This document shows positions 3,116 through 18,749 of a DNA stretch of 44,774 bases, one piece after another. Where the stretch lies: IMG/VR virus record IMGVR_UViG_3300017991_001409, positions 1 through 44,774 of that record. The stretch is one strand, 5' to 3'. This DNA comes from a virus. Under the pieces are notes generated by a model. That model did not search any database. It saw only the letters and a program-made list of their open reading frames with translations, and was not told where the DNA came from. The position numbers and the translations under genes are program-made. Numbering within the stretch: position 1 is the stretch's first letter; every line of letters starts with the position of its first letter.

Positions 3116-3129
3116 GTGTACCTTCCTCC

Positions 3130-3576
3130 TTATTCACACACTGCCTGATGTTTCCGGTGATACTCCAAGACTCTATCCCGGAACTCCTCAATCTCGTCCC
3201 AATCGCACTTCCAGATCTCCGATGGTACACCGTCCATGCGTAGACACGGTTTCCCATTCTCCAGCTGACGTGCCAACTCAGCCTCAGCTCCTCCGGATCT
3301 CTCCCAGAAATGAGCAAACAGCCCCTGGCTCATGTCACCCAGTGTGAAGTCTGCTTCCAGCACATGGTCGATTGTTACGTAGCCATGGCCCAACAGGTAC
3401 TGTACGATGCGATCATACGGAGCCACCGAGATCCACTCGATTTCCGGTACGATGACCTGCAACGCATCAATGTTCCGTTTCGCCTTGGCACAGTTCGCTG
3501 CCATGTCTTCCATGGTAGCCGCATCACCCTTGTTCCCACGAATGGGAATTGCGTAATACACTTTCGGTCTAGCCAT
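3130..3576 (-). CDS. Nucleoside 2-deoxyribosyltransferase-like protein (tentative)
   Basis: The 148-aa product starts MARPKVYYAIPIRG at ATG 3576 after GAGAGGAG; an upstream in-frame TTG (3591) lies over the previous stop and ribosome site and is rejected. The opening beta strand YYAIPIRG followed by a short glycine/asparagine loop, and the later segment VAPYDRIVQYLL, recall the Rossmann-like nucleoside 2-deoxyribosyltransferase / DUF4406 group, which cleaves N-glycosidic bonds of nucleotides. The later charged segment and C-terminal helix fit no specific motif. It lies between a glycosyltransferase and the phosphoesterase. Family assignment is moderate and based on general sequence character. 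Confidence 0.45.
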   Translation of the reverse strand: MARPKVYYAIPIRGNKGDAATMEDMAANCAKAKRNIDALQVIVPEIEWISVAPYDRIVQYLLGHGYVTIDHVLEADFTLGDMSQGLFAHFWERSGGAEAELARQLENGKPCLRMDGVPSEIWKCDWDEIEEFRDRVLEYHRKHQAVCE

Positions 3577-3587
3577 TGTCACTCCTC

Positions 3588-4304
3588 TCAAAGCATGTTA
3601 CGTCTCTTCCTTCCAATCCTTACTACGCCACCACGCCTAACCGACGTCGCCGGATGCCTCTTCACCGATCCCGGCTTCACCATGACTGGGTCAGGCTTAT
3701 CAATCTCCTTCTTAGGTGGTGGAGCATTCCGCACTGTCCTCGATGCCTGATAATGCTTGATCACAGGCTCCTCTACGTCAGCCATGTAATCAAAGATCGT
3801 GCAGTACTCCTCAGGCAGGATGAAGTACGGATAGTCACCCGCCTTCAGTGCCCGATCCAGCCCCACCTGATCCCACAACTGCGGATGTGGCTTGCACTCC
3901 GCAATCCACCGATCAATGATCTCGTGTGTTGTCGCACAGTTCTTGAAGTACAGTGTCCCACTCAACAGCTCAGGCTTCACATGTTTCCGACGCCTGCGTG
4001 AATGGTCCAGAACGTGTGCTGCCAGATACGCATCGTCACGCTCATCATATTCATCGAACAGAGACGGGTATTTCAGGAACTCCGCATCCGCATCCACATA
4101 CACCACCGACTTCGGGAAATGCTTTGCCAGCATCTCCTGCACAAAGTGGGGCTTCCACTGGGTGTTCGCATACCAATCACCCTTCGGTTGGATAGGAGTC
4201 ACGTCATAGGTCAGATTGAACCGCTTCATCGACCGAATCAGCCGCTTGACATGCTCCTCATACGGAGTCCCCACTGTGAAATAGGCTGTCACTACGTAAG
4301 ACAT
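3588..4304 (-). CDS. GT-A type glycosyltransferase with basic C-terminal tail
   Basis: The 238-aa protein opens with a beta strand (SYVVTAYFTVGTPY) and contains VYVDADAEF, a DxD motif that binds metal and a nucleotide sugar, followed by LLSGTLYFKN, WDQVGLDRAL and LPEEYCTIFDY; this order is typical of nucleotide-diphospho-sugar transferases related to GT77/GT8-like families. The last 50 residues are proline- and arginine-rich (ending RRGGVVRIGRKRRNML), probably an unstructured tail that could bind membrane or another protein. The start follows AGGAG. It is the most distal glycosyltransferase of the cassette. Sugar donor and acceptor cannot be read. Confidence 0.7.
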   Translation of the reverse strand: MSYVVTAYFTVGTPYEEHVKRLIRSMKRFNLTYDVTPIQPKGDWYANTQWKPHFVQEMLAKHFPKSVVYVDADAEFLKYPSLFDEYDERDDAYLAAHVLDHSRRRRKHVKPELLSGTLYFKNCATTHEIIDRWIAECKPHPQLWDQVGLDRALKAGDYPYFILPEEYCTIFDYMADVEEPVIKHYQASRTVRNAPPPKKEIDKPDPVMVKPGSVKRHPATSVRRGGVVRIGRKRRNML

Positions 4305-4305
4305 G

Positions 4306-5136
4306 TCACAACTCCTTGATTTGATCTCGAATTGACGGGATCATCAGGCGATCATTCAATGGTAGAACTGTCGCAAGTGTCCGGTTGCAATCTGCACCGG
4401 GGGCACATGGTTCTATATCCAGTTCGAGACCAAAATGTTCGCTCAAAAGTGATAAAAGTTCGTATTTTGTCACGATATCTGAGAATACATGGAAGATTCC
4501 CTTTTTCCATAAATTACCCTCCATGATCTTCTCGCAGATGCGTGCATATTCGTTGGTAGTAACGCCATTCCACCGATGATTCGTGAATCCACGCACCTTC
4601 TGCCCAGCCTGACTCTTCGCCCACGCAATCAGACTTGCGTCCTTGTGCAGCTCATTGCCAATGATGCTCGTTCGCAGCGTCATGCACTCCGTAGACTCAC
4701 CCATGACCTTGCTCATGCCATACAGATCCTGACAATCATGTGCATCTTCCTCAGTATAAAGTCCCTTCTGGCCTGAGTAGACACAGTCAGTAGTGATATT
4801 GATCAGCTTGATCCCATTCTGATTGCAATACTCCGCGAGAACGTGCGGAAATACCGAATTGATCAGCAGCGTGTTTGCCGCACCTGTTGATTCAATGAAT
4901 GGCTTGATGATCCCCAGGCAGTTGATCACATACTCTGCCTCTCTGGGGATCTTGTGCATCGTGTACTTCTCGTGTGGAAGCCGAAATGACATCCACTTGC
5001 CCGGATACATGGGCTCCTGCACCCCATCGTCACTCCGACACGTCAGGAGCACCTCGTCACGTCCATAGATGTTCTGCATATGCTGCCCCACAGCATTGCC
5101 CAGCATTCCCGTTGCACCCAATACGACTACCTTCAT
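4306..5136 (-). CDS. RmlD-like SDR: NDP-4-keto-6-deoxysugar reductase
   Basis: A 276-aa short-chain dehydrogenase/reductase. G7-ATG-MLG13 is the GxxGxxG NAD(P) loop, NCLG and ITTDCVYSG are the RmlD-type strand motifs, and DLYGMSK supplies the catalytic Tyr/Lys pair. RmlD-type enzymes reduce the C4 ketone of activated 6-deoxy sugars; the MLGNAV start resembles reductases of the UDP-L-QuiNAc route (WbvR type). The ATG at 5136 was chosen because AGGAGG precedes it and it forms an ATGA overlap with the cupin gene before it. Neighbouring RmlC-like and epimerase genes support deoxysugar synthesis. Exact sugar is inference. Confidence 0.8.
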   Translation of the reverse strand: MKVVVLGATGMLGNAVGQHMQNIYGRDEVLLTCRSDDGVQEPMYPGKWMSFRLPHEKYTMHKIPREAEYVINCLGIIKPFIESTGAANTLLINSVFPHVLAEYCNQNGIKLINITTDCVYSGQKGLYTEEDAHDCQDLYGMSKVMGESTECMTLRTSIIGNELHKDASLIAWAKSQAGQKVRGFTNHRWNGVTTNEYARICEKIMEGNLWKKGIFHVFSDIVTKYELLSLLSEHFGLELDIEPCAPGADCNRTLATVLPLNDRLMIPSIRDQIKEL

Positions 5137-5588
5137 CTGTAATCCTCCTGCCAAAGCCCTTCTCCGAATGCATCCCATTCCAGACGATAGTCATCACCCC
5201 TGCTCTCTTCCATCGTAGTGGTCGAGAAGAACATCACTATCGTATCTGCTGTCAAATTCATGAATCCGTTGTAGTACCCAGGTGGAATCCACAGCACCTT
5301 CGGTGTGTCACTGGACAGTGTCACCTGTACCAAATCTGGATCATGCCCCACTACGATGTGTGGAGTACGAGAAATCGGAATCGCCTGGATCAGCGCCGCA
5401 CCTTTCGGCACATAGACATACTTGCCCTCGATCTTGTGACCATGCCATGCCCGAATAAACCCAGCCGCATGATTCTCCACCTGATAGAACCGCTTCACTC
5501 CTACGAATGCGAAGTCATTCACAAACGACAACGGCCCACGATCATCCACGAACTTCCCACCACTGATAACTTCCGGTTTCTCTGTCAT
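5133..5588 (-). CDS. RmlC-like cupin sugar epimerase
   Basis: The 151-aa protein matches the single-domain cupin fold of dTDP-4-dehydrorhamnose 3,5-epimerases: DDRG near the N terminus, FIRAWHGHK (the RGxH-type catalytic histidine strand), VPKGAA, and WIPPGYYNGF in place of the usual IPxGxAHGF. It ends with DDYRLEWD, also an RmlC-like feature. The family inverts C3/C5 of 4-keto-6-deoxy sugars or acts as a ketoisomerase. Start ATG 5588 was chosen over 5594 because the AGGAG site abuts the latter; the chosen start makes an ATGA overlap with the preceding SDR. The altered HGF motif (YNGF) means activity may differ from RmlC. Confidence 0.75.
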   Translation of the reverse strand: MTEKPEVISGGKFVDDRGPLSFVNDFAFVGVKRFYQVENHAAGFIRAWHGHKIEGKYVYVPKGAALIQAIPISRTPHIVVGHDPDLVQVTLSSDTPKVLWIPPGYYNGFMNLTADTIVMFFSTTTMEESRGDDYRLEWDAFGEGLWQEDYR

Positions 5589-6559
5589 AGCCATCTCCTG
5601 TATGTATTCTCAATGTGCAATTGATTGCTATAGATCGGACTGCCCAAGTTCTTGATTCGATTGTGCTTCACCAAACTCACAATGTCATGTACACCATTGA
5701 TCAGCTTCCACTGTGGTGATGGTGCATCCAGAACTGCATGCCACCGATCAGTCGAGACACGGTAGTTCCGCTGGTCCTCGAACATCATCTCCACCGTCTT
5801 CACCTCACACTCCGGAATCACCTTCTTGATTTCCGTTGCAATCTCGTGAATGCGAAAGTTCCCCGCACTCAAATTGAACAGACCCTTCAGCTTCGGATGA
5901 TTGACCGCATACCGAATGGCCTCACCCACATCCTTCACGTGAATCATCGGTCTCCACTGCTCACCTCCAAACACTGTCAGAGGCTCACCACATGCGGCCT
6001 TCTTCGCCAGGATGTTCGCCACCAAGTCCAACCGGATACGTGAGAACAGATCACCAACACCATACAGAGTCCCTAGCCGAAACACCACACTACGATCTGC
6101 TGCATGCTCCAGGATGTACTGCTCAGCCTCCAGCTTCGTCTCCGCATACACTGACAACGGATTAGGCGCAGCGTCTTCATCGATGAGATCGTTGTTGACC
6201 CCATACACACTGCATGTACTCGTGAAGATGATTCGTCCATCGTAGTTGTCCACCAGCCACTTCACCGCATCTGCATTCACAGCCTGCGTCAAGAACGGAT
6301 CAGCCGCACACGCACCATCACCCACGATAGCTGCCAGCCACACCACTGTGTCAAACTTCGGTAGGATCTCCAGTAACTTGGACCGATCCCGGATGTCACC
6401 GTACACGAACGGCACATGCTTCATGAACCGCTCTTCATATGCCAAAATGTCATACACGGTCGGATCTGGATCACAATGCTCCCGCGCTGTGTACTGCAAC
6501 AGGTCTGTCAACCACCCACCAATGTACCCGGCACCACCTACCACTAATGTATTACCCAT
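5585..6559 (-). CDS. NAD-dependent sugar epimerase/dehydratase (extended SDR)
   Basis: The 324-aa product has VVGGAGYIGG (GxxGxxG cofactor loop), VYGDIRD, LAAIVG, TSTCSVYG and SVYAETK (Ser-Tyr-Lys catalytic set), and RPMIHVKDV, the order seen in GalE/WcaG-like nucleotide-sugar epimerases, dehydratases and reductases. The substrate cannot be read from sequence. Two ATGs (6562 and 6559) are possible; 6559 lies 7 bases after GGAG, the spacing used through the window. Its stop overlaps the RmlC-like start. In context it would convert a UDP- or GDP-sugar for one of the cassette glycosyltransferases, for example the GT10 enzyme. Confidence 0.8.
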   Translation of the reverse strand: MGNTLVVGGAGYIGGWLTDLLQYTAREHCDPDPTVYDILAYEERFMKHVPFVYGDIRDRSKLLEILPKFDTVVWLAAIVGDGACAADPFLTQAVNADAVKWLVDNYDGRIIFTSTCSVYGVNNDLIDEDAAPNPLSVYAETKLEAEQYILEHAADRSVVFRLGTLYGVGDLFSRIRLDLVANILAKKAACGEPLTVFGGEQWRPMIHVKDVGEAIRYAVNHPKLKGLFNLSAGNFRIHEIATEIKKVIPECEVKTVEMMFEDQRNYRVSTDRWHAVLDAPSPQWKLINGVHDIVSLVKHNRIKNLGSPIYSNQLHIENTYRRWL

Positions 6560-6569
6560 CATCCTTCTC

Positions 6570-7427
6570 CTAAAAGAAACTCCTTCTCTTTCCTTTCTCC
6601 TTCGGCATATCCGCATGTGGAACAACCGATTCATGCAACATCTGAGGATCGTTGTTTCTGAATCTCATGCACGCGCACATATGCAAATCATGAAATGACT
6701 CAAACGGAAGACAGTCCATGGTTCCCTTGCCTGTGTAGATCGCTGGGTAGGATGCGTAATCAAGTTGCAAATCGTCATACGCCCTCGTGAATCCGATCTC
6801 TATCCCGATCCCATTGTAGTTCTCCATCCCATACTGCATCATGACCGTAAACTGCTTCCTTGGTGCTATCGCAGCTGGGAAACACAGCGAATACTCATCC
6901 CGGATCTCTGGCAGCTTCACCAAGAAGTCACCATCATCCGCTCTAATCCAATGCGTCACATCATTGATGTATGCCAACCGCTGCTCTCTGCCTGGGCGCT
7001 CCACGAATCCCGGAACATTCAACAGGTTCTCTTGATGAATGTGCGTATTGTAATTGATCCAGTTGATCCCAAACCTGTTCCACAGAGCATACAAAGTCTC
7101 CTCTGTAGGAATCCGCTCGATCACCACATGGTCCTCACAGTAGAACAGGAACTCATCGTCAATGTTCGCCACACCACGCTTGATGTTGTTCAGCATGGCC
7201 CGCTCTCCCGTACACTCGCCCAACACGACCGTCCAACCCTTTGGAGAGTACCGCTGACGGAGCACATGCTCACAGCCCACCACATCCGGCTGTAGGTCGA
7301 TGGAGAGCACCTTGGTATTCAGCGTCTCAGACACCGTGTTCGCACGATCAATGGAGTCCAGGAGCCGACACGTCAAATCCAGACGATGAGGCAGATTCGT
7401 TGTGATAACCAGACAGCCGACGCTCAT
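6570..7427 (-). CDS. Putative GT-A glycosyltransferase
   Basis: The 285-aa product begins MSVGCLVITTNLPHRLDL, then has the pattern of a GT-A enzyme: an N-terminal strand, a helix with RLLDSID, and EFLFYCEDHVV, an ED-containing strand at the place of the usual DxD. Later parts contain many aromatic residues. The start ATG 7427 overlaps by one base the TAA of the small gene before it (TAATG) and has an AAGGGGA site. No specific CAZy family is recognised. Being inside the sugar cassette supports the call; I would not assign a donor. Confidence 0.5.
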   Translation of the reverse strand: MSVGCLVITTNLPHRLDLTCRLLDSIDRANTVSETLNTKVLSIDLQPDVVGCEHVLRQRYSPKGWTVVLGECTGERAMLNNIKRGVANIDDEFLFYCEDHVVIERIPTEETLYALWNRFGINWINYNTHIHQENLLNVPGFVERPGREQRLAYINDVTHWIRADDGDFLVKLPEIRDEYSLCFPAAIAPRKQFTVMMQYGMENYNGIGIEIGFTRAYDDLQLDYASYPAIYTGKGTMDCLPFESFHDLHMCACMRFRNNDPQMLHESVVPHADMPKEKGKRRSFF

Positions 7428-7609
7428 TATCGTTTCCCCTTGCACTTACCATCATTGCCGATTTCAATCAGGCTGGGACATACGCACTCACCATTCCGAT
7501 TCGCTACACAGTCCACAACACCACACTTCACCGTGGGCATATTCCAATCCCTCGACGTTGGGAATCGCCCACCCGTTCTATTGTGGTCCATAAGCCCATG
7601 TTTTTCCAT
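7427..7609 (-). CDS. Cysteine-rich 60-aa protein, DUF1540-like
   Basis: This small gene starts at ATG 7609 in a TGATG overlap with the epimerase gene, after GAGGAG, and ends in a TAATG overlap with the next gene. The C-terminal half has five cysteines in the order CGVVDC, NGECVC, GKC, close to the DUF1540 pattern (CxVxxCxxNxxGxCxxxxIxIG), a small probable metal- or disulfide-stabilised knot. Position between two sugar enzymes and tight coupling on both sides argue that it is real. Function of DUF1540 is unknown. Confidence 0.65.
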   Translation of the reverse strand: MEKHGLMDHNRTGGRFPTSRDWNMPTVKCGVVDCVANRNGECVCPSLIEIGNDGKCKGKR

Positions 7610-8679
7610 CACGCCTCCTCCTCAATGATTCTCACGATTCTCTCCGCTGTCTTGCCATCGCCTAGCCACTCCAAACCCATGGGACCATCCTGATCCAACC
7701 ATGCCATGGATTCTTCAAACGATCTCTGATCCATGCCCAGCATAAATGAACATCCTGCATTCATCGATTGGGGCCGCTCTGTATAATCACGTGGCACAAT
7801 CACCTTTGTGCCCAGCAATGGGGCCTCCTCTTGGGCCGTGCCAGAATCTGAGAACACAAACAGACTGTGGTACTGCGCCTCCAGAAATTGCTTGTAGGAC
7901 ATCAGTGGAACAGGTCGCACTCGATTTATGCAGATGTGGTTCTCTGACAATGCTCTCATTGTTCGACCAAAAGACACCATATGCACCGGCACATTGTAAC
8001 GATGAGAGTAATCATTGGCATACACCATGATCTGAGCCAGCCGCTTCCGGTCCTTAAAATTCTCAGGACGATGAATGTCCATGATGATATGATCACGCCG
8101 AGAGGGACCCTGAGCCCTCAACTCCTCTGCAATAGGATCACACACCTCCCTGATAGTATTGCCTACCACCCAGATTCCCCACGTGTCAATGCCCTCATTC
8201 AACAACTGCTTCTTGTAGTCCTCATGATAGACAAAGTGCATGTCACAGCAATGGTCACAAACCGTGCGATTGATCTCTTCCAGCATCCGACGATCATAGG
8301 ACCGCATGCCAGCCTCGATGTGGCCCAACTTGTACCCCTCCTTCTTCAGGCCCACCGTGCAGATCACCGAATTCGTGTCACCTAGGAACAGGATCAGATC
8401 CGGATCTAGGTTCTCTGCACGAATCAGCTGAATGACCGCCTTGGTGATGTCACCCGACAGCTCGAAGTGCTCCTTGCCCGGAGCCCCACAACCCAGATTA
8501 TAATCAGGCTCGCGTATCTCCAACTCATCGAAGAACACGCCACTCAACATCTTATCGTAGTGCTGCCCTGTGTGGACCAAGATATGCTCGATACTGTCAC
8601 TCTCGTCCAGTTTCCGGAAGACTTCTCTCATCCGGATGAAATCAGGTCTAATTCCTGTCACCGTCATCACTGTTTTCAT
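7609..8679 (-). CDS. UDP-N-acetylglucosamine 2-epimerase family (WbjD/FnlC-like)
   Basis: The 356-aa product has the non-hydrolysing UDP-GlcNAc 2-epimerase signatures in order: TVTGIRPDFIR, VHTGQHYD, LFLGDTNS, HIEAGMRS, EEINR, MDIHRPEN and FSDSGTAQEE, including the catalytic Asp, Glu and His positions. The pattern HTGQxYD ... FFxxLxIRxPDY is the style of the WbjD/FnlC/CapG subgroup, which inverts C2 of UDP-6-deoxy-amino sugars in UDP-L-FucNAc and UDP-L-QuiNAc synthesis, rather than plain WecB. Start ATG 8679 follows AAGGG and overlaps the upstream sulfotransferase by 32 bases. The subgroup call is from recalled motif similarity. Confidence 0.9.
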   Translation of the reverse strand: MKTVMTVTGIRPDFIRMREVFRKLDESDSIEHILVHTGQHYDKMLSGVFFDELEIREPDYNLGCGAPGKEHFELSGDITKAVIQLIRAENLDPDLILFLGDTNSVICTVGLKKEGYKLGHIEAGMRSYDRRMLEEINRTVCDHCCDMHFVYHEDYKKQLLNEGIDTWGIWVVGNTIREVCDPIAEELRAQGPSRRDHIIMDIHRPENFKDRKRLAQIMVYANDYSHRYNVPVHMVSFGRTMRALSENHICINRVRPVPLMSYKQFLEAQYHSLFVFSDSGTAQEEAPLLGTKVIVPRDYTERPQSMNAGCSFMLGMDQRSFEESMAWLDQDGPMGLEWLGDGKTAERIVRIIEEEA

Positions 8680-9388
8680 CTCTTCCCTTTCCGTCAAACC
8701 GTTCCCAACAATAGTAGTACAATGCAAGATCGTACTGATTGTGCTCCATAGCCAGCTTCTCTGCGTTCTCAGGTAATGGGGCCTTCTCTGTCCTCACATT
8801 GTCCTTCGTCGTATTCTGCATTGGGACCTGGACACCAGGATCACGTCCCATGACCTGGAGCATCCGATCAAACGACGCCTGCATCGTCATCTGGAAACCC
8901 ACAAAGTCATACCACTGATTGATGTTCGCCACAGCTCTCTTGTACATCGCACCTGTACACGACCCAGTCAACGTCGCAAAGGTCTTATTGATATCATTCG
9001 GCCAGCCACTGATCATTCGTGTAATCAGGTTGTTCCCAATCACCGTCTTTGTGCCCGACACAAACTCCTCAAAATCATGAACACCCTCATGCGTATGCAC
9101 CGAATTCAGTCTCCACCAATACTGTGTGTACCACTGCGAAATCACACGCTGCACAGGCTCCCGCATGATAGTCACATAGCGGCATGGTTTCTTTGTCGCC
9201 TGATGAAACCCAAAGTTCACATGCCCTGTCACCAACTCCACAGACATATCATGCTGAACAAAGAACCGATGATGATCATTCGGATACAGTCCCTGAAACG
9301 AGTACATGTTGCCCGTACCAAACACATTCCGAAGCGCCGTTGTCACTGATGTACCACCCACCTTAGGCAGGTGTTGAAAGATCCACAT
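8648..9388 (-). CDS. Sulfotransferase (PAPS-dependent), copy A
   Basis: The 246-aa protein has the 5'-phosphosulfate-binding loop near the N terminus (HLPKVGGTS, residues 6-14) and the 3'-phosphate-binding strand YVTIMREPVQRVISQWY, the order and spacing of the Sulfotransfer_2 family (heparan/chondroitin and bacterial carbohydrate sulfotransferases). It would move sulfate from PAPS to a sugar hydroxyl. The histidine in VTGHVNFG is a candidate base. ATG 9388 was chosen because GGGAG stands just before it, whereas ATG 9400 lies over the previous gene's end. Its neighbour is a second sulfotransferase, and an APS kinase lies 5 kb upstream. Confidence 0.85.
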   Translation of the reverse strand: MWIFQHLPKVGGTSVTTALRNVFGTGNMYSFQGLYPNDHHRFFVQHDMSVELVTGHVNFGFHQATKKPCRYVTIMREPVQRVISQWYTQYWWRLNSVHTHEGVHDFEEFVSGTKTVIGNNLITRMISGWPNDINKTFATLTGSCTGAMYKRAVANINQWYDFVGFQMTMQASFDRMLQVMGRDPGVQVPMQNTTKDNVRTEKAPLPENAEKLAMEHNQYDLALYYYCWERFDGKGRDENSDDGDRN

Positions 9389-9390
9389 GC

Positions 9391-10092
9391 CTACTCCCAT
9401 CCAAACTTATCCCGACAATACTCATACAGCTCATAGTCCAAGCTGTTGTTAGCCTCGATCCGTCTAATCTGATTCGGAGTGGGCTTGACCGGATTCGTCA
9501 TCTTGTTATGATGACCCAGATGTGGAAGCTCACGCCCCAAAAGCATCCCGATCCGCTTCACAGACATATCCAAACACTCCAATGCGCCCACGAACGGATA
9601 CCACTGATCAATATTCCGCTTTGCTGTCTCCAACAAATCCCTGGAGCATGGAGCCCACTTCAGCTTCAGTCCCGTACTCTCAGGACCCAATAGCCCAGCC
9701 ACCTTTCGTGTCATCAGATTGTGGGACTGTGTGAATGCAGGATCATCAATGAAATCATCGAAGTCCCGATAGACACGCCCAGAATTCCACAGATCGATGT
9801 TGTGCTGGACATATGTGTGGCGCTCATGCCATGCAAAGTGTGACACCACTCGTGCCAGAGGATCTCTGAGGATCGTGATGTATCCCTGGACGCCATCAAA
9901 GAACCGATGTATGCCGAACAACAAATGTCCCCGCACCATCTTAGTCTTCTCTGTCCATCCCTCCACCACCTCCGGAGTATGCCTATTCGGAAACGTCGTC
10001 GTCTCCAAAATCTCCTCAGGCTTGTACGTTTCATACAGGGCATTCTTCAAGGACATGCCGCCTGTCTTTGACATATGCTGAATGATCCACAT
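9391..10092 (-). CDS. Sulfotransferase (PAPS-dependent), copy B
   Basis: This 233-aa paralogue of the following gene shares MWI-QH at the start, the phosphate loop HMSKTGGMS (6-14), RGHLLFGIH and the 3'-phosphate strand YITILRDPLARVVSHF. The loop deviates from the usual PKxGGT: S8 replaces Pro and M13 replaces Thr, so PAPS affinity may be altered, although the essential Lys9 and both glycines remain. The pair probably arose by duplication and then took different acceptors or positions on the glycan. It begins 1 base after the stop of the methyltransferase gene and has a GGAG site 8 bases upstream. Confidence 0.8.
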   Translation of the reverse strand: MWIIQHMSKTGGMSLKNALYETYKPEEILETTTFPNRHTPEVVEGWTEKTKMVRGHLLFGIHRFFDGVQGYITILRDPLARVVSHFAWHERHTYVQHNIDLWNSGRVYRDFDDFIDDPAFTQSHNLMTRKVAGLLGPESTGLKLKWAPCSRDLLETAKRNIDQWYPFVGALECLDMSVKRIGMLLGRELPHLGHHNKMTNPVKPTPNQIRRIEANNSLDYELYEYCRDKFGWE

Positions 10093-10093
10093 C

Positions 10094-10741: not shown

Positions 10742-10751
10742 ACTCTTCTCC

Positions 10752-11603
10752 TTATCCCAGTGACTTGATCAGATCTTCCAGCACAGCCACACTTCCCAGC
10801 TTGCACGTGCTAACCCATCGGTGATTACTTTCCACAACCGCTTCATACCAATCCTCATTCTCTGACATCTGTTGTAGCAGTTGCGATAGCCCGTTATAAT
10901 CTCTTGTCTGTCCATAGAATTCTCCAAAGTTAACAAACGATCCTCCAGGCACATAGTCCTGGATGTTGTAGCATCCCATGTAGATCGGGATCGTCCCCGC
11001 TCGGAAGCAGTTCAAGATCCTCTCTGTCATGAACCCCTGTGTCCAGAAGGGATGATACGAGGATTCCAGGCACAGACAGAACTTGTACTCACTGATCTTA
11101 CGCAGCTGATTTGGATGACTGTGATGGATAGGTGACTCCACCTCACCCTGATAACAGCTGCCACCCCATTCACGATCCTTCGGAGCCCACACATGCCGAA
11201 CCAGATCACCGCCGATGTTCTGCATGACCTCATTCCGCAACCAATAGATGCAGCCTGGACGTCCATTCTGATACACGTTGTTCAGGCAACACACCCCATT
11301 GATCTTCTCCTTAAACGGCACCCTCTCGGCCAATGGCGCTGGAGGATTACACCCCAACACACCCTGCACCAGATGCATGTTCAGAATGGGCTTATACATC
11401 TCAAAGAACGCCGGATTCCACGTAATCACATGCTCATACTGACGCAGCATTTGCAGATCCCAGTTCTCAGGCATCCCAACGTATGGCTCTCCTGGGTAGA
11501 AGATGCGGTAGCCATTCTCTCGACTATGCACCTTCCCATCGAATCCCTTCCAGTTGAAAGCCACATGCGGATATTGCTCATTCAGTCTCGTCCAATCATC
11601 CAT
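10752..11603 (-). CDS. GT10-like fucosyltransferase
   Basis: The 283-aa protein ends with the alpha-1,3/4-fucosyltransferase signature: KFCLCLESSYHPFWTQGF, then MTERILNCFRAGTIPIYMG, NIQDYVPGGSFVNFGEF. This matches the GT10 consensus FALCFENSxxxDYVTEKxxxAxxAGxVPVYxGAPNIxDYxP-SFI. GT10 enzymes transfer L-fucose (or a related 6-deoxy sugar) from GDP-fucose to GlcNAc-type acceptors. The usual Y-x-E/T-K is altered to F-MTE-R, so the donor could differ. ATG 11603 was chosen over upstream starts because AAGGAAG precedes it and it overlaps the radical SAM gene by only 8 bases. No complete GDP-fucose pathway is visible here, so the donor probably comes from the host or from the SDR in this cassette. 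Confidence 0.85.
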   Translation of the reverse strand: MDDWTRLNEQYPHVAFNWKGFDGKVHSRENGYRIFYPGEPYVGMPENWDLQMLRQYEHVITWNPAFFEMYKPILNMHLVQGVLGCNPPAPLAERVPFKEKINGVCCLNNVYQNGRPGCIYWLRNEVMQNIGGDLVRHVWAPKDREWGGSCYQGEVESPIHHSHPNQLRKISEYKFCLCLESSYHPFWTQGFMTERILNCFRAGTIPIYMGCYNIQDYVPGGSFVNFGEFYGQTRDYNGLSQLLQQMSENEDWYEAVVESNHRWVSTCKLGSVAVLEDLIKSLG

Positions 11604-12465
11604 TTCTCTTCCTTCGATAGACCACCTTTGACATGAGGCAGGTTGAGTTGTGGTGGCACGGTCTCTTTCCCAATGTGTAATCTCGACAGTACACCTCATT
11701 CACAAGATCATACGGACACTGAATGATCTTCCCGCCAATGATGTAGTTCGCAAAGTTGCAGTGACAATCTGGCAATGTCTTCGTTGATTCAAACACACCG
11801 CGCTTCGACACATGAATGTCCATGTCACCCTCATACTGCCACATGAACTGATGCACCAGCTCCTTGTACTCAATGACTGGCATCGTCAGATCCGTATCAT
11901 CGAAGAACTCCTTTCTCGGATTGTCCAACTCACGTAGGCTGGAGATGAAGAACACCTTGCACATCCCAGTGCTCTCCACCGATTCCGCTGTGGACAACAT
12001 GTCCTCCACTGTGGTGGTCCGTGACACCATGAAGTTCGCATCGAACGGAACCTGTGCATCCATCACATTGTGAATGCCCTTCCCCGGATGGAATGTGCCA
12101 TACAGTGACACTCGCAACTTCGCATTGTACTTCGCAAATGCCTCCCCGCTGAACCCATCCAACTTGCGACCGTTCGTGTAGATGGTGGTCTTCAGTCCCA
12201 ACTTCTGATTGTAGATCAGCATCGCTTCCAGATGAGGATGCAACAAGGGCTCACCACCCAATAGGTTGATCTGCCGCCCACCACGTCTCCAGAACACATC
12301 CACCGCACGCTCATACTCATCCAGGTCGATGTCCACGCTATCCTTCATCACCTTACGAGCAAAGCATCCTGTACACTGCAAATCACATCGATTCGTGATG
12401 AAGATCTGAAGCGTGTATCGCCTGCTCAGTGGTAACTCTTGATATTTGTGCCACGGAAATTTCAT
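11596..12465 (-). CDS. Radical SAM enzyme with possible C-terminal auxiliary cluster
   Basis: The 289-aa protein has the radical SAM cluster motif C27-DLQ-C31-TG-C34 and the SAM-binding INLLGGEPLLHPHLE motif. The C-terminal 60 residues contain further cysteines (DCHC, QCPY, CHH, TC), the spacing of a SPASM-like auxiliary Fe-S cluster. Radical SAM/SPASM enzymes carry out hard C-H chemistry on peptides or sugars. In a glycan cassette, sugar dehydrogenation, deoxygenation or epimerisation is one option; peptide modification is the other. Start ATG 12465 forms an ATGA overlap with the small gene before it. Confidence 0.85.
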   Translation of the reverse strand: MKFPWHKYQELPLSRRYTLQIFITNRCDLQCTGCFARKVMKDSVDIDLDEYERAVDVFWRRGGRQINLLGGEPLLHPHLEAMLIYNQKLGLKTTIYTNGRKLDGFSGEAFAKYNAKLRVSLYGTFHPGKGIHNVMDAQVPFDANFMVSRTTTVEDMLSTAESVESTGMCKVFFISSLRELDNPRKEFFDDTDLTMPVIEYKELVHQFMWQYEGDMDIHVSKRGVFESTKTLPDCHCNFANYIIGGKIIQCPYDLVNEVYCRDYTLGKRPCHHNSTCLMSKVVYRRKRNG

Positions 12466-12737
12466 GCATCCGCTCTCCCACAAAACTCAATTGTCGTCTC
12501 TAAGAACACTTTGCCGACACATATCTCACCCTCGCCCACTATCGTCTCTGCCACACCCTGTGCAGATGAAAGCAACTCAAATGTCATCGCATCCTTATCA
12601 AAGTGCGACCACTCCTTACCCGTCCAAAACCTATGTTCATCAAAGACCTCATCACTTGCAAGCCATGGATCTGTCTTTTTGGGAGGTATCACCGCCATGA
12701 CCACAAACTCAAAATGCCCACCTCTTATCCATTTCAT
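12462..12737 (-). CDS. Hypothetical protein, 91 aa
   Basis: A 91-residue product starting MKWIRGGHFEFVVMAVIPPK at ATG 12737, which forms an ATGA overlap with the preceding glycosyltransferase stop and has a GGGGAG site. It ends in an ATGA overlap with the radical SAM gene. The first part is beta-rich with tryptophan and proline, and the second is probably a mixed alpha/beta small domain. No family is recognised. The double coupling suggests a partner role for the radical SAM enzyme or glycosyltransferase. Confidence 0.6.
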   Translation of the reverse strand: MKWIRGGHFEFVVMAVIPPKKTDPWLASDEVFDEHRFWTGKEWSHFDKDAMTFELLSSAQGVAETIVGEGEICVGKVFLETTIEFCGRADA

Positions 12738-13585
12738 ACGCCGCTCCCCCACTCACGAGTCTTGTTCCGGAAGAAGTCTGCTGGACTCTTCGTCACAAAC
12801 AACTGACGCATAGCCAGAAGCTGCTCCGGAGTACAGTCTGTCGCTCTCGGATGCCAGGGATGAACCGCAGCACATGCCGCATCAGGAACCAAATACACAC
12901 CCAGATGGTACAGCCGACAGAACATATCTGCGTCCTCCCATCCATAGCTCACATAGTCCTCGTCATACCCTCCGATTTTCTGGAAAACACTGGTGGGCGC
13001 TGCATATGCATAGTGGAAGTAGGTCGATGGGTTTACCTGCCCATCAGCCAACTCAATGATCTCCTTTGCATGGTACGCATTCTCAGCCACCATCGGAATC
13101 ACAAGACGAGTCAGAGGCATATGCTCCAACGCCCAATTGACACCACCTGTCACCTCCAGCATGTCTTTCGTGCGATGCTCAGGCACCACCCACACCTTCC
13201 CAGCTCGCCACGGTGTGTGACAATGGATCGCCCGATAGATGAAGTCTCCGGTCATGATGACCTCTCCATCCTTCTGCAAGGTGATCTCACTCTCATTCCG
13301 TCTCAGGAAGTAATTCCGAATGAACGCGCCGTTCCTCGGCCCCTGATGGTCATGGAGCAATGTGAATGATCGCACATTCTTATTACGCAGATGCGACCAA
13401 TTGTGATTCACATTGTCATTTCCGATCACCAACAGATAATCTTTGGGATCGACCTTCGTTCGAATCTGATTGATAGCAAACTCAGTCAAATGAGAGTGTG
13501 CGTAGTTCGGCATGAACACGACCAACTTCTTGCTTCGTGTCTCTGCCCAATCAAAATCCTGCTTAACGTCCAAGAGCTTCGCCAT
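12734..13585 (-). CDS. GT2-type glycosyltransferase with galactosyltransferase-like C-terminal region
   Basis: The 283-aa product contains KLVVFMPNYAHSHLTEFAIN (first strand and helix of a GT-A fold), VIGNDNVNHNW, and later QKIGGYDEDYVSYGWEDADM, the catalytic GYDExxxGWExxD signature of GT2/GT7 galactosyltransferase-like enzymes such as chondroitin synthase domains. These enzymes add Gal, GalNAc or a similar hexose. It overlaps the GT32-like gene by 23 bases and is followed by the small 91-aa gene. Confidence 0.8.
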   Translation of the reverse strand: MAKLLDVKQDFDWAETRSKKLVVFMPNYAHSHLTEFAINQIRTKVDPKDYLLVIGNDNVNHNWSHLRNKNVRSFTLLHDHQGPRNGAFIRNYFLRRNESEITLQKDGEVIMTGDFIYRAIHCHTPWRAGKVWVVPEHRTKDMLEVTGGVNWALEHMPLTRLVIPMVAENAYHAKEIIELADGQVNPSTYFHYAYAAPTSVFQKIGGYDEDYVSYGWEDADMFCRLYHLGVYLVPDAACAAVHPWHPRATDCTPEQLLAMRQLFVTKSPADFFRNKTREWGSGV

Positions 13586-14417
13586 CGTTCACATACCTCA
13601 AAAGGTGACACACGATATTGTCATAGTCTCTATACGTTTTTTCCGTGAGAAAGTTCTGTGCTTTCCCCGCTTCTGGAGCGCCCGCATACCAATGAATCCC
13701 GATCACATCCGGCTGAATCACCTCATTCATGAATCGACCAGCAGGCTCTGTGAAGATCACCAAAGCCGCACGTGTCGGATACACGGTGCGAATATCGAAG
13801 TTGAACACATCTGAAGCCCCCATATCAATCACCGTCTTGTAGAACGGAGATCCCACACTCTGGTATTGCTCCAGGTTGATGTTGTTTCGTGCCAGCTCAA
13901 ACAGCTTCGTGTAATGCCGATTCCCCGGCGCTCCCGCCAGGAACCCAATACTGTGGTATGGAGGCCCATTCGCTGGCGTAGGGTCCTGTGTAGGCCCACC
14001 ACGACGATAGCAGAAGTATGCCGTATGATCCGTCTCCCGCAACACCGCAGACAGAGGACGATAGTAGAGGATGTCAGAATCACTCCACAAGCCTCCGACC
14101 GTAGACAGCAGGTACAGGCGAATGATGTCAGACTTGATCACCTCAGGCAGGTCATTAGAGAACCCAATGGCCTCCATATCGAACGGAGCCACATGGACAC
14201 CAAGATTCTCCAGCCGATCCATGTAGTCCTCTGTGTCCAATCCTTCCTTATTCTCAAAGGTCACCCATGACTGAGTAGTCGTCAGCTTCTTTGGCACATA
14301 TAGCACCATCCTCCAGTCCGGATTATACTTCCGGAAGGAATACAGGGCCATGTACCGCAAATACGGAAGGACCGATCCACCCCAGTAAAAGAACGCCTGC
14401 TTAGGGACAAATCTCAT
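13563..14417 (-). CDS. GT32-like glycosyltransferase (DxD sugar-binding)
   Basis: The 284-aa product has FFYWGGSVLPYL at the start and VIKSDIIRLYLLSTVGGLW followed by SDSDILYYRPL: this is the Gly_transf_sug / GT32 signature, in which a DxD (SDSD) motif binds metal and nucleotide sugar in enzymes such as OCH1 and capsular polysaccharide synthases. A late GIHWYAGAP segment matches the HW motif near the C terminus of the family. The ATG forms an ATGA overlap with the APS kinase gene. Confidence 0.85.
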   Translation of the reverse strand: MRFVPKQAFFYWGGSVLPYLRYMALYSFRKYNPDWRMVLYVPKKLTTTQSWVTFENKEGLDTEDYMDRLENLGVHVAPFDMEAIGFSNDLPEVIKSDIIRLYLLSTVGGLWSDSDILYYRPLSAVLRETDHTAYFCYRRGGPTQDPTPANGPPYHSIGFLAGAPGNRHYTKLFELARNNINLEQYQSVGSPFYKTVIDMGASDVFNFDIRTVYPTRAALVIFTEPAGRFMNEVIQPDVIGIHWYAGAPEAGKAQNFLTEKTYRDYDNIVCHLLRYVNDGEALGR

Positions 14418-15181
14418 AGCTCACCCTTTCTGATCTTCGTCGCACTGATGTCCTCGATAGCTGCATCCAAGCGAATCTCACGAATACCATAGCCCACTCC
14501 ACGACCATAGCATACCTCTGCGATGTCCGGAATCACCACCACCTCCGCATCCGGGACCTGCTCTTTGATCATCGCCCTCCGCTCCGCAACACTGTATGGG
14601 TTGCTCTCCGAAATCTCCGTGTCACGAATGCCGATGAGAATCTTCTTGCCCTCTTTCCGCACCTGATCAAATAGAGTCTTATGTCCCTCATGAAGAGGTT
14701 GCCACCGACCAATGAACAGGCTGTACTTGTTATCCTTCAACACACCCAAATGCTTTCGGATTGTATCCGCACTCTGCTTCACTCCAATGTAATCATGGTT
14801 CACCATACAGAACCCACCTGGATTATCCATAAACTCTTCGCACGTAGGCTCCTCATAGAAGTGACCTTCACGTTCCGGCATTGTGCGCTTGATGTAGATC
14901 CACTCAGGGTCACATACATTTGAGATCTCTCTCCGCACTTCACGCATCGGAGCAATGACTGTCACCATCACATCATGGTGCTGTGAAAGAATCTTCGCCA
15001 ACCGAGCCACTCTCAGATTGTGCTCCCGACGATCTTCTCTAGAAAACCCAGCGCCCAGCGAGATACTTTCCCGCATCTCATCACCATCCAGAATTACGCA
15101 GTTCCAGCTCTTTTGAATCTCCCTCGCCACCGTCGTCTTTCCAGCCCCAGACTGTCCTGTCAACCACACTATCCTTCCCAT
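14414..15181 (-). CDS. Adenylylsulfate (APS) kinase fused to HxGH nucleotidyltransferase
   Basis: The N-terminal half (about 1-145) is an APS kinase: Walker A GQSGAGKTT (9-17), DGDEMRESIS (32-41) and GAGFSREDRREHNLR (43-57). It would phosphorylate APS to PAPS, the sulfate donor for the two sulfotransferases downstream. The C-terminal half (about 152-255) is a nucleotidyltransferase of the NMN adenylyltransferase/cytidylyltransferase type: GRWQPLHEGH (158-167), NPYSVAER (194-201) and ISATKIR (245-251). It is far too short for canonical ATP sulfurylase. It may perform the adenylyl transfer that makes APS, or serve a separate nucleotide reaction. A GGAGGAG site precedes the ATG. Confidence 0.9.
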   Translation of the reverse strand: MGRIVWLTGQSGAGKTTVAREIQKSWNCVILDGDEMRESISLGAGFSREDRREHNLRVARLAKILSQHHDVMVTVIAPMREVRREISNVCDPEWIYIKRTMPEREGHFYEEPTCEEFMDNPGGFCMVNHDYIGVKQSADTIRKHLGVLKDNKYSLFIGRWQPLHEGHKTLFDQVRKEGKKILIGIRDTEISESNPYSVAERRAMIKEQVPDAEVVVIPDIAEVCYGRGVGYGIREIRLDAAIEDISATKIRKGEL

Positions 15182-15368
15182 TCTTTCTCCTCCCTATCCA
15201 ATCCATCCACAAGTGGAAGTGGTAATACAACACGATGTTCAGCAGATTAAATGCCACACTTGTCCCTATCGCTGCATGCCACTGCCCAGTCATAGCAAAC
15301 ACCACGATTGCATGTATCAGCACGTTGTGCAATCGATACAAGATCCCTTGAACAAACAAACCCTTCAT
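15081..15368 (-). CDS. DUF2061-like small membrane protein
   Basis: The 95-aa product begins MKGLFVQGILYRLHNVLIHA, with two hydrophobic segments (about 14-28 and 31-48) ending in VLYYHFHLW. The R..., ATGQW-like loop and YY..H.W ending follow the DUF2061 pattern (KSxxxRxxxxxxT-G...YYxHERxW). Its start is at ATG 15368 with GGAG 7 bases upstream. It overlaps the first 101 bases of the APS kinase gene, longer than other overlaps here. DUF2061 function is unknown; I infer it accompanies the sulfate-activation step at the membrane. Confidence 0.65.
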   Translation of the reverse strand: MKGLFVQGILYRLHNVLIHAIVVFAMTGQWHAAIGTSVAFNLLNIVLYYHFHLWMDWIGRRKNGKDSVVDRTVWGWKDDGGEGDSKELELRNSGW

Positions 15369-15380
15369 CCCTGATCTCCA

Positions 15381-16136
15381 TCATCGCAACATCTCTTCCA
15401 TCTTCGCGTAGATCTTCCGATTTCGTTCCCACAATGGACAACCACCCACGAGACCGGGATTCTTCGGATGCCACTGATGCACCACAAACAAACCATTCGA
15501 CGTACTGTCAATGCACACGCGAAGCTTCTTTCGAATGCGAAGCAAGAAATCATTGTCCTCGAAACAGTACCCAAGAGCATATGCCTCATTGAACCCGCCC
15601 AACTTCTGAAGATTCTTCGTCGTAATGCCCGCACAAAAATGATACCACTTTGGAAACGCACTTGGATGATGATACCACTGTTCCTTCTTGAAAGGCTGCA
15701 CGATACTCCGCACCTGCCCTCCCACATTGCCCCCATCCACCTTCGACAAGAGCCCATACTCAGCCTCCGTAGAAGCGTAGCAAGGAGCTGCCACATAACT
15801 GCCTGATCCCACACGAGAACGCATGTCACGCAGAATCGGCCCCACATGCACACACTCCGCATTCTGAATCACCACCACGTCCCCAGTGACCTCTGCAAAC
15901 CCCATATTGTAAGGGACAGATGGGTTGATCCAGTACTTCTCCTCGTTCGACACCTCCACCAACGTCACTTCTGCGCCAAGCTCCTCGATGACAGTTTTGG
16001 CCCTCAGGCCCTCATCCGAAGCATCATCCACCACAATCAGTTCCAGATCTGGATCACACTGCTCCAGGATCGATTTCAGAGTCAACCGGAACTGATTCGG
16101 CCTGTTGTGATATGTCATTACAACGCTCAGCCTCAT
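15381..16136 (-). CDS. GT2 family glycosyltransferase
   Basis: The 251-aa protein begins MRLSVVMTYHNRPNQFRLTL and has LIVVDDASD, GFAEVTGDVVVIQNAE and LGGFNEAYALGYCFEDNDF, the ordered GT2 motifs (first strand, DDxS/D nucleotide strand, and catalytic ED in the GGFxExxxxGxxxEDxD motif). This class adds hexoses or HexNAc to growing glycans. Start has GGGAG 9 bases before ATG. It overlaps the DUF115-like gene before it by 83 bases. Confidence 0.88.
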   Translation of the reverse strand: MRLSVVMTYHNRPNQFRLTLKSILEQCDPDLELIVVDDASDEGLRAKTVIEELGAEVTLVEVSNEEKYWINPSVPYNMGFAEVTGDVVVIQNAECVHVGPILRDMRSRVGSGSYVAAPCYASTEAEYGLLSKVDGGNVGGQVRSIVQPFKKEQWYHHPSAFPKWYHFCAGITTKNLQKLGGFNEAYALGYCFEDNDFLLRIRKKLRVCIDSTSNGLFVVHQWHPKNPGLVGGCPLWERNRKIYAKMEEMLR

Positions 16137-16812
16137 TTGTCACTCCCACCTTCCGAAATGGAACATAGCGATTCAATCTACTCATCTCTGAACAACTGAA
16201 CACCTGCACTCCGTATTCCTTACGCATCACCTCCAAAGCCATAGGATATGGCACCATGAACTCTTGCAATTTCGCATCGTACTTTCGCCTGTCTCGATCC
16301 GCATAGTCCTTATGAAAATGTGTGCCTCCCACAGTCGCACGAAAATCATACCCAAGCAAGTAGATCTCTGTGTATCCCAGCACCACGGCCAACTGAAGAC
16401 CTGCATAACCTGAGTCACTTCCACAATGGAAATCATCAAAGGAAGGGCCGACACCACCATATGCTGCCGCATGCACCACACGATCAAACGGGCTCAGATC
16501 ATATGTGATACCATGCGCATTGTCCACAATGTGACGCTCATCCAAAACCTGCAACCGATCTCCACTGAATCCCACCACAAAGATCTTATCTGCTGGATGC
16601 CGAGAAAACTCACGCCGCTTGTCCGTGCGACACTTGTCACCTGTGATCCCATTTCGCAGAACCCATGTATAGTCCATGGTCACGAAGTACTTTGCATTGG
16701 GGAGATGAAAGAGAGACTGATTGACAGCTATCACATCCTTCCCATTCAACCATGAATAGTCGAATGTGGTTAGGGACGTACCGCCACCAACAATATAGCA
16801 TGCCTTCTTCAT
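16054..16812 (-). CDS. DUF115/GT42-like protein, copy B
   Basis: The 252-aa product starts MKKACYIVGGGTSLTTFDYS, then KDVIAVNQSLFHLP, YFVTMDYTW, and ends its core with SGYAGLQLAVVLGYTEIYLLG. GGGxSL at the start and the GYTEIYLLGYDF strand are the fold markers shared by DUF115/MptE-like proteins (including Maf flagellin glycosylation proteins) and the GT42 sialyltransferases. It is a paralogue of the gene before it. Members add or prepare nine-carbon or related sugars, but here the donor is unknown. ATG 16812 follows GGGAAG and replaces an upstream in-frame start lacking a ribosome site. Confidence 0.65.
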   Translation of the reverse strand: MKKACYIVGGGTSLTTFDYSWLNGKDVIAVNQSLFHLPNAKYFVTMDYTWVLRNGITGDKCRTDKRREFSRHPADKIFVVGFSGDRLQVLDERHIVDNAHGITYDLSPFDRVVHAAAYGGVGPSFDDFHCGSDSGYAGLQLAVVLGYTEIYLLGYDFRATVGGTHFHKDYADRDRRKYDAKLQEFMVPYPMALEVMRKEYGVQVFSCSEMSRLNRYVPFRKVGVTNEAERCNDISQQAESVPVDSEIDPGAV

Positions 16813-16832
16813 TTCTTCCCACCTATACGGAA

Positions 16833-17573
16833 TTAGACACCAGACAAAAACCCACCCCAAGACCGCTTCTCAAAGCATTGCAATGCACTGTCTGGGTTGA
16901 GGTTGAAAACAGAAATTCCCATCGCACCCAAGCAAGGACCTATCTCCTCAATGCAGTTCCGGAAGTTCTCCAGATTCCGCAATAGGCTCCTGATTGTTCC
17001 ACGATCATACCCCTCGTGACAATGAGTCTTCACTGCGTTTCCATTCTCAATGACCTTGAAATCATATCCCAACAATCCAATCTGAGTACACCCAAGCGCC
17101 ACTGCCAACATCAACGCTCCACACCCAGAATTGTTACCCTTGTAGATGCCCACGCCTAGGTCCAGACTCACCGCCTTCTTGCCCAGGTCCTGCACTACAT
17201 ACACGTTCTCATTGAACACTTGCCGCTGGGCTCGCATGAACACCTTGATCCCATCATACTGGCTCCACTCCCGATGAAGCTCATAGTGATCCTGGGACGG
17301 CTTACGATTCAGTTCCACCATCTCAAAGAACGTGTGGTCCATGGAATAGTGAACCTCAGACGGGTACAACTGAAACATCTTGTTGATCCCAATTGTGTGA
17401 ATCCCATCCAAAACCCCAAAATCAAATCCCTCCAAGCTGGGACCTCCACCGAGAATCACACACCGCTCACCTCTCCAAGCACCAGACGGAAGCACATCCG
17501 ACACTGGACGTGCCTTGCACGGCTTAGGACCTATCCTCTTCACAACGGTTCCCCTATGTGTATTGAAAGACAT
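16833..17573 (-). CDS. DUF115/GT42-like protein, copy A
   Basis: The 246-aa product carries RCVILGGGPSLEGFDF, IHTIGINKMFQLYP, HYSMDHTFFE and NSGCGALMLAVALGCTQIGL, LGYDF, the same skeleton as the following gene. It is the first gene after the tail fibres, 5 bases after the last fibre stop; the ribosome site is weak, so coupling to that gene is likely. A start at MSFNTHRG (17573) was chosen because no ATG exists further upstream in frame before the fibre gene end. DUF115 includes protein-glycosylation factors, which would fit modification of the virion proteins encoded directly before it. Confidence 0.6.
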   Translation of the reverse strand: MSFNTHRGTVVKRIGPKPCKARPVSDVLPSGAWRGERCVILGGGPSLEGFDFGVLDGIHTIGINKMFQLYPSEVHYSMDHTFFEMVELNRKPSQDHYELHREWSQYDGIKVFMRAQRQVFNENVYVVQDLGKKAVSLDLGVGIYKGNNSGCGALMLAVALGCTQIGLLGYDFKVIENGNAVKTHCHEGYDRGTIRSLLRNLENFRNCIEEIGPCLGAMGISVFNLNPDSALQCFEKRSWGGFLSGV

Positions 17574-17578
17574 GCCCA

Positions 17579-18739: not shown

Positions 18740-18749
18740 CTCTTCTCTC

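Follow-up and report, generated by a model that had tools for sequence, protein, structure and literature searches.

The window analysed here, the whole 44,774-base IMG/VR record IMGVR_UViG_3300017991_001409, is a myovirus fragment. It contains a hypervariable glycan-synthesis slot that belongs to a clade of myoviruses and is framed by GT42/DUF115-like and PF03407 glycosyltransferases (GTs). Within this slot, sulfation is a facultative sub-module, the genes of which are present or absent together. As an earlier note on this DNA had described, the cassette runs in one direction behind two fibre paralogues; approximately 18 open reading frames (ORFs; 3588-17657, each named here by its lower coordinate) lie on the minus strand, mostly overlapping or spaced by 12 bp or less, with a single larger gap of 163 bp. 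Virion genes upstream of the slot are transcribed in the same direction, including a partial major head protein (43854-44741), the tail sheath (33270-34892), and the baseplate wedge (24460-26169). Scans against Pfam, PHROGs, and NCBIfam, in which 'above cut-off' refers to the curated Pfam cut-offs, recovered all of the families that had been read from the letters: the glycosyltransferases, the DUF115/GT42-like pair, four sugar-nucleotide enzymes, a methyltransferase, a radical SAM protein, an adenosine 5′-phosphosulfate (APS) kinase fusion, and two sulfotransferases (Table 1). With a dozen families matched independently and above the curated cut-offs within a single operon, chance is excluded. 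Two genes were added to that list, namely ORF 6570 and a DUF2061-like gene immediately preceding the kinase gene, and one was removed, ORF 3130-3591, which belongs to the conserved flank outside the glycan set.

Approximately 20 related phages were collected via relatives of the tail sheath and profile scans with flanking genes; IMG/VR scans with single proteins yielded close relatives only and alignment-based scans were needed. Throughout this collection, the GT42/DUF115-like genes and one PF03407 glycosyltransferase are kept as a frame and the interior is swapped. Sixteen loci were recovered with an alignment of the ORF 3588 glycosyltransferase, with a different interior in each. In nine related records, the distance between a fibre homologue and the first DUF115/GT42-like gene is -36 to +20 bp. 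In sister phage G011, the flanking proteins are approximately 50-90 % identical to those of the window (approximately 80 % in many) and the DUF115/GT42 pair and the ORF 3588 glycosyltransferase are retained; the interior holds GT4, GT2, and methyltransferase genes that have no homologue in the window. The slot of G008 contains NeuB, a CMP-sugar-synthase-like cytidylyltransferase (CTP_transf_3), radical SAM, and methyltransferase genes. NeuB with CTP_transf_3 suggests a nonulosonic acid, which would fit the GT42-like frame genes; the CTP_transf_3 and NeuB genes are at 3770-4450 and 6608-7429 of the G008 record (L040). The interiors of G009 and G010 are different again, and in L215 the slot carries LicD and a cytidylyltransferase (CTP_transf_like; L215:909-1959), suggesting phosphodiester decoration of that phage's glycan. 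Twelve further phages contributed 104 interior proteins, in which methyltransferases, SDR/RmlD, GT2, radical SAM, and GT4 are the most frequent families. The GC content of the slot (0.51 against 0.49 for the structural block) gives no sign of foreign origin.

The closest relative of the cassette, in phage G055 (records L232 and L248), has homologues of the slot genes at 42-62 % identity. Five genes are missing from it, these being the kinase fusion (14414), the DUF2061-like gene (15167), both sulfotransferases (9391 and 8648), and the 96-aa ORF 12462; all other slot genes are present. With the window as positive control, PF01583 and PF03567 are absent from the whole G055 records. Random loss of five of the 18 genes would include all four sulfation genes with P = 0.0016, a value that serves as a guide only, the genes not being independent. 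Because these four genes occupy two sites in the window approximately 4.3 kb apart, a single local deletion is insufficient to account for the G055 pattern. A different version of the module is found in the same slot of G048 (L220/L237), with a DUF2061-like gene and a kinase fusion 54 % identical to that of the window. Also present there are one Sulfotransfer_1 gene (E 3e-19) and another that is sulfotransferase-like but recognised by no Pfam model. In L220, the DUF2061-like homologue (2.7e-13) adjoins the kinase fusion, and DUF2061 is also found near the kinase/nucleotidyltransferase pair in other phages. In G046 (L218) there is a Sulfotransfer_1 match in the slot and no kinase in the record.

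Both sulfotransferases of the window score above the Sulfotransfer_2 cut-off and contain the 5′-phosphosulfate-binding (5′-PSB) and 3′-phosphate-binding (3′-PB) motifs. A PF03567 search of the sister phages, informative only once the window served as positive control, found no match. A tblastn comparison of the window-type sulfotransferases with 50,697 phage records likewise gave none, the ORF 9391 protein has no pattern match in IMG/VR, and neither sulfotransferase has a close solved structure by sequence. The absence of the whole module from G055, the independent version in G048, and the sulfotransferase enrichment around the enzyme pair described below support the proposal of a sulfation arm, and it is highly likely that the locus has a sulfation function.

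The ORF 14414 product is a candidate 3′-phosphoadenosine 5′-phosphosulfate (PAPS)-forming enzyme, judging by its two domains. Its APS_kinase match (70.6 bits, cut-off 21.1) covers columns 2-98 only of the 152 in the PF01583 profile. The AlphaFold2 model of the fusion has a predicted local distance difference test score (pLDDT) of 86 and its best PDB matches are APS kinases (E 1.9e-8). The C-terminal region of approximately 110 residues, referred to here as the mini-domain, has the motifs GR[FYW]QPxHxGH, PDIxEVCYGRxVGY, and ISATxIR. The first and last of these correspond to the NadM motifs GRFQPxHxGH and ISxTxIR, and PDIxEVCYGRxVGY occupies the place of the NadM central region, the full NadM fold being approximately 160-180 aa. 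The mini-domain profile matches PDB 1f9a (E 3e-11), and hmmscan gave no match to the ATP sulfurylase domain PF01747 in the fusion protein. When the canonical APS-binding lid was searched for as KGLYxxAxxGxxxxFTGIDxPYExP, related fusions in L072, L135, L151, L156, and L160 were found to have a complete canonical APS-kinase domain, including the full lid motif.

Scans with the mini-domain returned at least 528 confirmed relatives in IMG/VR and at least 530 in GTDB genomes. The neighbourhoods of the best-scoring relatives were surveyed as 115 deduplicated loci, with approximately 6 kb fetched on each side, using kinase and sulfotransferase profiles built in-house by iteration. An APS-kinase-family kinase is fused to the mini-nucleotidyltransferase, in either order, or adjacent to it at 111 of the 115 loci, and the pairing is therefore near-obligate. 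A sulfotransferase is present within the fetched stretch at 63 of the 115; at NadM-like control loci there were neither kinases (0/26) nor sulfotransferases (0/26). On a rerun, sulfotransferases were found at 62 of 113 loci and at none of 62 control loci. In independent Pfam scans of the neighbours, the leading families included APS_kinase, Sulfotransfer_3, and Sulfotransfer_1. In cellular genomes with the pair, many of them incomplete assemblies, Sat (PF01747) was found in one of 27 and a CysD-like protein (E <1e-50) in five of 27. Because the pair co-occurs with sulfotransferases and few of the carrier genomes have Sat or CysD, it is proposed that the mini-domain makes APS; the chances of this sulfate-adenylylating activity are judged to be even. 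It is almost as likely that the mini-domain represents a third type of sulfate adenylyltransferase besides Sat and CysDN, forming with APS kinase a minimal PAPS synthetase that supplies sulfotransferases in phages and in lineages mostly lacking known ATP sulfurylases (Patescibacteria, Omnitrophota, Marinimicrobia, Pelagibacteraceae, and haloarchaea), and that phages plug this pair into a swappable virion-glycan slot.

The pair was also seen across Patescibacteria, Omnitrophota, Marinimicrobia, marine group III, Pelagibacteraceae, alphaproteobacteria, and haloarchaeal plasmids (L135-L179), with most of the tested genomes having neither Sat nor CysD. At L070:5599-6324, the mini-nucleotidyltransferase appears by eye to be fused to a HAD-phosphatase-like domain, with the kinase gene adjacent. 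Stenotrophomonas phages encode a divergent kinase/mini-nucleotidyltransferase fusion (L050:4001-4741 and L051:4995-5726).

From the enzyme families and their genomic arrangement, we infer a series of reactions. The epimerase and RmlC/RmlD-type enzymes would provide sugar nucleotides, from which the variable glycosyltransferases, the methyltransferase, and the radical SAM enzyme would shape a short glycan in the cytoplasm. The constant frame, made up of the GT42-like pair and the PF03407 enzyme, would either initiate the chain on an acceptor, which could plausibly be a fibre, or complete it there. The mini-nucleotidyltransferase would adenylylate sulfate to APS, the APS-kinase-type domain would phosphorylate the 3′-OH of APS to give PAPS, and the two Sulfotransfer_2 proteins would transfer sulfate from PAPS to the glycan. 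Glycan synthesis with sulfation and attachment to the virion, in which the APS step is not required, is considered reasonably probable for the locus as a whole. Attachment of the glycan to the virion is, taken singly, slightly favoured, and the acceptor would probably be a virion protein, presumably a fibre.

Several observations weigh against this interpretation. The kinase domain of the window has no canonical lid/FTGID stretch, only a YEEP remnant. The mini-domain resembles NadM and not ATP sulfurylase (hhalign 98.7 %, E 3.4e-16, against a NadM; 0.7 % against a Sat), and the sulfation arm, which the earlier note had called complete, is so only if this NadM-like domain makes APS. Stenotrophomonas-type homologues are located beside NADAR and MazG in Bhz60 and among DNA-metabolism genes in DLP_6. 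No CMP-sugar synthesis genes for the GT42-like pair are encoded in the window, and a search for a Ser/Thr-rich acceptor among the window proteins found nothing distinctive. The relatives are metagenome fragments, and absences thus apply to the records and not to genomes; the G055 slot is complete.

Rather than decorating the virion, the cassette could remodel the lipopolysaccharide or capsule on the surface of the infected host, which might, for instance, prevent superinfection or keep progeny from re-adsorbing. The slot enzyme classes are those of O-antigen and capsule loci, phage-encoded Wzy and O-acetyltransferases alter the Acinetobacter capsule (PMC9241936, PMC6586298), and sulfated capsule loci with cysNDC and sulfotransferases are known (PMC11641403). 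However, a scan of the slot proteins for several strongly hydrophobic segments found none of the flippase, polymerase, or gtrA type, which would favour cytoplasmic assembly on a soluble acceptor, and the slot is inside the structural gene block, tightly linked to the fibre genes. Remodelling of the host surface is therefore rather unlikely; the fibre linkage in nine records and the lack of flippase/polymerase-type slot proteins are more consistent with a virion glycan. As a separate observation, an ORF directly after the fibre in G009 (L041:17269-17802) has a run of approximately 48 threonines, possibly a mucin-like glycan acceptor, or alternatively a repeat or assembly artefact.

A second alternative concerns the fusion, which might make another 3′-phosphorylated nucleotide donor or serve NAD metabolism, and not form PAPS. 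The APS-kinase family does include such an enzyme, Cj1415 of Campylobacter, a cytidine diphosphoramidate kinase. The closeness of the nucleotidyltransferase to nicotinamide mononucleotide (NMN) adenylyltransferase, in the hhalign comparison and in the match to PDB 1f9a, and the position of the distant homologues beside NADAR are in keeping with this. Against it are the sulfotransferases near the pair at 63 of the 115 loci and none of the controls, the joint absence of the fusion and the sulfotransferases in G055, and the canonical APS kinase domains of several fusions, together with the APS kinase structure matches. On this evidence, a role other than PAPS formation is unlikely.

Glycan hypermodification of the phage DNA by the slot genes is very unlikely: although DNA-glycosylating phage glycosyltransferases are known (RB69, PMC6024577) and nucleotide modification by glycosyl- and sulfotransferases in phages has been suggested (PMC10829341), the locus is among virion genes and not replication genes, its interior is swapped next to constant fibre neighbours, and the cassette gave no match to a base-modification family. 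An auxiliary role of cysC in assimilatory sulfate reduction, as phage cysC and cysH are interpreted in the literature (PMC10914622, PMC9529941), was rejected as extremely improbable, since PF01507 (CysH/CysD) is in none of 35 phage records with the module, window included, against 14 of 14 control genomes, and Sulfotransfer_3 is in 22 of the 35.

With regard to the glycan made under the preferred virion interpretation, the four sugar-nucleotide enzymes do not specify the exact sugar, as all of them score below the equivalog cut-offs, although WecB is close. That the glycan may be fucosylated is suggested by a single match, to GT10, which is above its profile cut-off; no dedicated match to GDP-fucose synthesis genes (GMD/Fcl) was found among the slot sugar genes, which are RmlC, RmlD, and epimerase types, and GDP-fucose could be supplied by the host. 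For ORF 16833, the MptE/DUF115 Pfam match is sub-threshold. Its predicted fold (pLDDT 70) is closest to the CstII sialyltransferase at moderate confidence (Foldseek E 2.9e-6, template modelling score 0.47-0.51), which would fit a CMP-sugar donor, although the model is moderate and the window has no CMP-sugar genes. The ORF 16833 protein has an invariant GGGxSL..LLGxD..THxH motif.

Table 1. Slot genes and adjoining fibre-like ORFs of the window, with the matches on which each assignment is based
Feature	Position	Strand	Evidence
Two homologous fibre-like ORFs	17579-18808, 18750-20012	minus	Homologous to each other; immediately upstream of slot
DUF115/GT42-like glycosyltransferase 1, conserved frame gene	16833-17657	minus	PHROG 4603 2e-22
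CST-I/GT42-like glycosyltransferase 2, conserved frame gene	16054-16860	minus	PF06002 28.5 bits (cut-off 25); PHROG 4603 1.8e-22
GT2 glycosyltransferase	15381-16136	minus	PF00535 4.7e-12; G055 homologue 48 %
DUF2061-like small predicted membrane protein	15167-15368	minus	PF09834 E 0.0017, below cut-off (scanned as 15081-15368)
APS-kinase-type domain (residues 2-98) fused to mini NadM-like nucleotidyltransferase (approximately 150-255)	14414-15181	minus	PF01583 2e-19; PF01467 (CTP_transf_like) 3e-9
Caps_synth/Gly_transf_sug-type glycosyltransferase	13563-14417	minus	PF05704 3.5e-7; PF04488 5e-5; 62 % in G055
GT7C/GT2-like glycosyltransferase	12734-13585	minus	PF02709 1.7e-6; 56 % in G055
Small ORF, 96 aa	12462-12752	minus	Overlaps both neighbours; no PHROG match; no G055 homologue
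Radical SAM protein	11596-12483	minus	PF04055 1.4e-14; slot homologues G055 56 %, L215 55 %
GT10 (fucosyltransferase-family) glycosyltransferase	10752-11699	minus	PF00852 7e-11, 42.5 bits (cut-off 23.9); G055 53 %, L217 39 %
TylF-type methyltransferase	10094-10741	minus	PF05711 2e-5; PHROG 6608 6.8e-19
Sulfotransferase, Sulfotransfer_2	9391-10092	minus	PF03567 28.8 bits (cut-off 22); 5′-PSB-like SKTGGMS, 3′-PB-like RDPLARVVS
Sulfotransferase, Sulfotransfer_2	8648-9400	minus	PF03567 32.3 bits (cut-off 22); PKVGGTS and REPVQRVIS motifs
UDP-GlcNAc 2-epimerase family (WecB-like)	7609-8727	minus	PF02350 7e-68; TIGR00236 195.6 bits (cut-off 210)
Protein without a family match	6570-7445	minus	No Pfam/PHROG match; 52 % homologue in G055 slot
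SDR nucleotide-sugar epimerase/dehydratase	5585-6634	minus	PF01370 3e-30; gene order with neighbours kept in L215, L217, L221, G055
RmlC-like cupin (sugar epimerase type)	5133-5594	minus	PF00908 1.5e-8
RmlD-like nucleotide-sugar reductase	4306-5178	minus	PF04321 9.6e-17; below rmlD equivalog cut-off
PF03407 (Nucleotid_trans) glycosyltransferase, conserved downstream frame gene	3588-4304	minus	PF03407 22.9 bits (cut-off 22)

The product of ORF 6570 is possibly a glycosyltransferase. Consensus promoters and terminators were not found in the window above the level of shuffled sequence. Past the slot, the conserved flank (1799-3591), which is kept in the sister phages, encodes, by eye, two proteins, of which one is deoxyribosyltransferase-like and the other is phosphoesterase-like and has a DNA-binding-like part at its N terminus. 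In L217 (1581-3227), the slot radical SAM gene is seemingly split, by eye only, by an intein-like (Hint) segment, which starts CFTGDTKIKL and ends HNFALSAGIFVEN ahead of the next Cys.

The earlier suggestion that a sulfation arm would be new in a phage was too strong. Phage cysC (PMC10914622, PMC9529941) and viral sulfotransferases, the latter in lists of auxiliary metabolic genes (PMC12285232, PMC13079714, PMC10829341), have been published, and the kinase/nucleotidyltransferase pair is near sulfotransferases in dozens of IMG/VR contigs. In the open-licence literature, no description was found of the slot, of a phage sulfation arm, or of the mini-nucleotidyltransferase and its pairing with APS kinase. 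One part of the locus may be a new enzyme class. If the proposed reading is true, some phages use a PAPS supply of their own to sulfate a surface glycan that they also make themselves, and exchange glycan recipes in the manner of bacterial O-antigen loci, with a bearing on adsorption, immunity, and defence evasion. Much of the phage cysC annotated as assimilatory sulfate reduction would then be sulfation machinery, and the mini-nucleotidyltransferase is a testable candidate for PAPS formation in microbes without known ATP sulfurylases.

Among known systems, the frame genes can be compared with the GT42 sialyltransferases CstI and CstII, by family match for ORF 16054 and by fold for ORF 16833, and with the DUF115/Maf proteins, which are flagellin glycosyltransferases. 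Unlike GT42 sialyltransferase systems, the window has no CMP-sugar synthesis genes, such as those in the G008 slot. Mycobacteriophage virion proteins carry glycans (Freeman et al., 2023, as cited in PMC12619734); in the part of that source consulted no sulfation is reported, and both the phage and its glycan locus are unrelated to the window. Giant DNA viruses glycosylate autonomously, with clustered virus-encoded sugar-nucleotide enzymes and glycosyltransferases (PMC4691112), but they have eukaryotic hosts and the portion of that account consulted describes no sulfation arm. Marine sulfated capsule loci, such as that of Vibrio KMM 8419 (PMC11641403), bring together glycosyltransferases, rhamnose-type sugar genes, PAPS genes, and sulfotransferases, as in the window; unlike the phage slot, they also have export machinery and CysND. 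The phage cysC genes described as assimilatory (PMC10914622, PMC9529941) likewise place an APS-kinase-type gene in a phage, whereas here it is fused to or beside a mini-nucleotidyltransferase, with sulfotransferases and without cysH. The bifunctional PAPS synthetases (animal PAPSS; bacterial Sat-CysC and CysN-CysC) differ in that the second domain in the window is a 110-residue NadM-like domain with no detectable similarity to the tested ATP sulfurylase, and the kinase is shortened. Like them, the fusion combines APS kinase with a nucleotidyltransferase, and the window-type pair occurs in both domain orders with sulfotransferases nearby.

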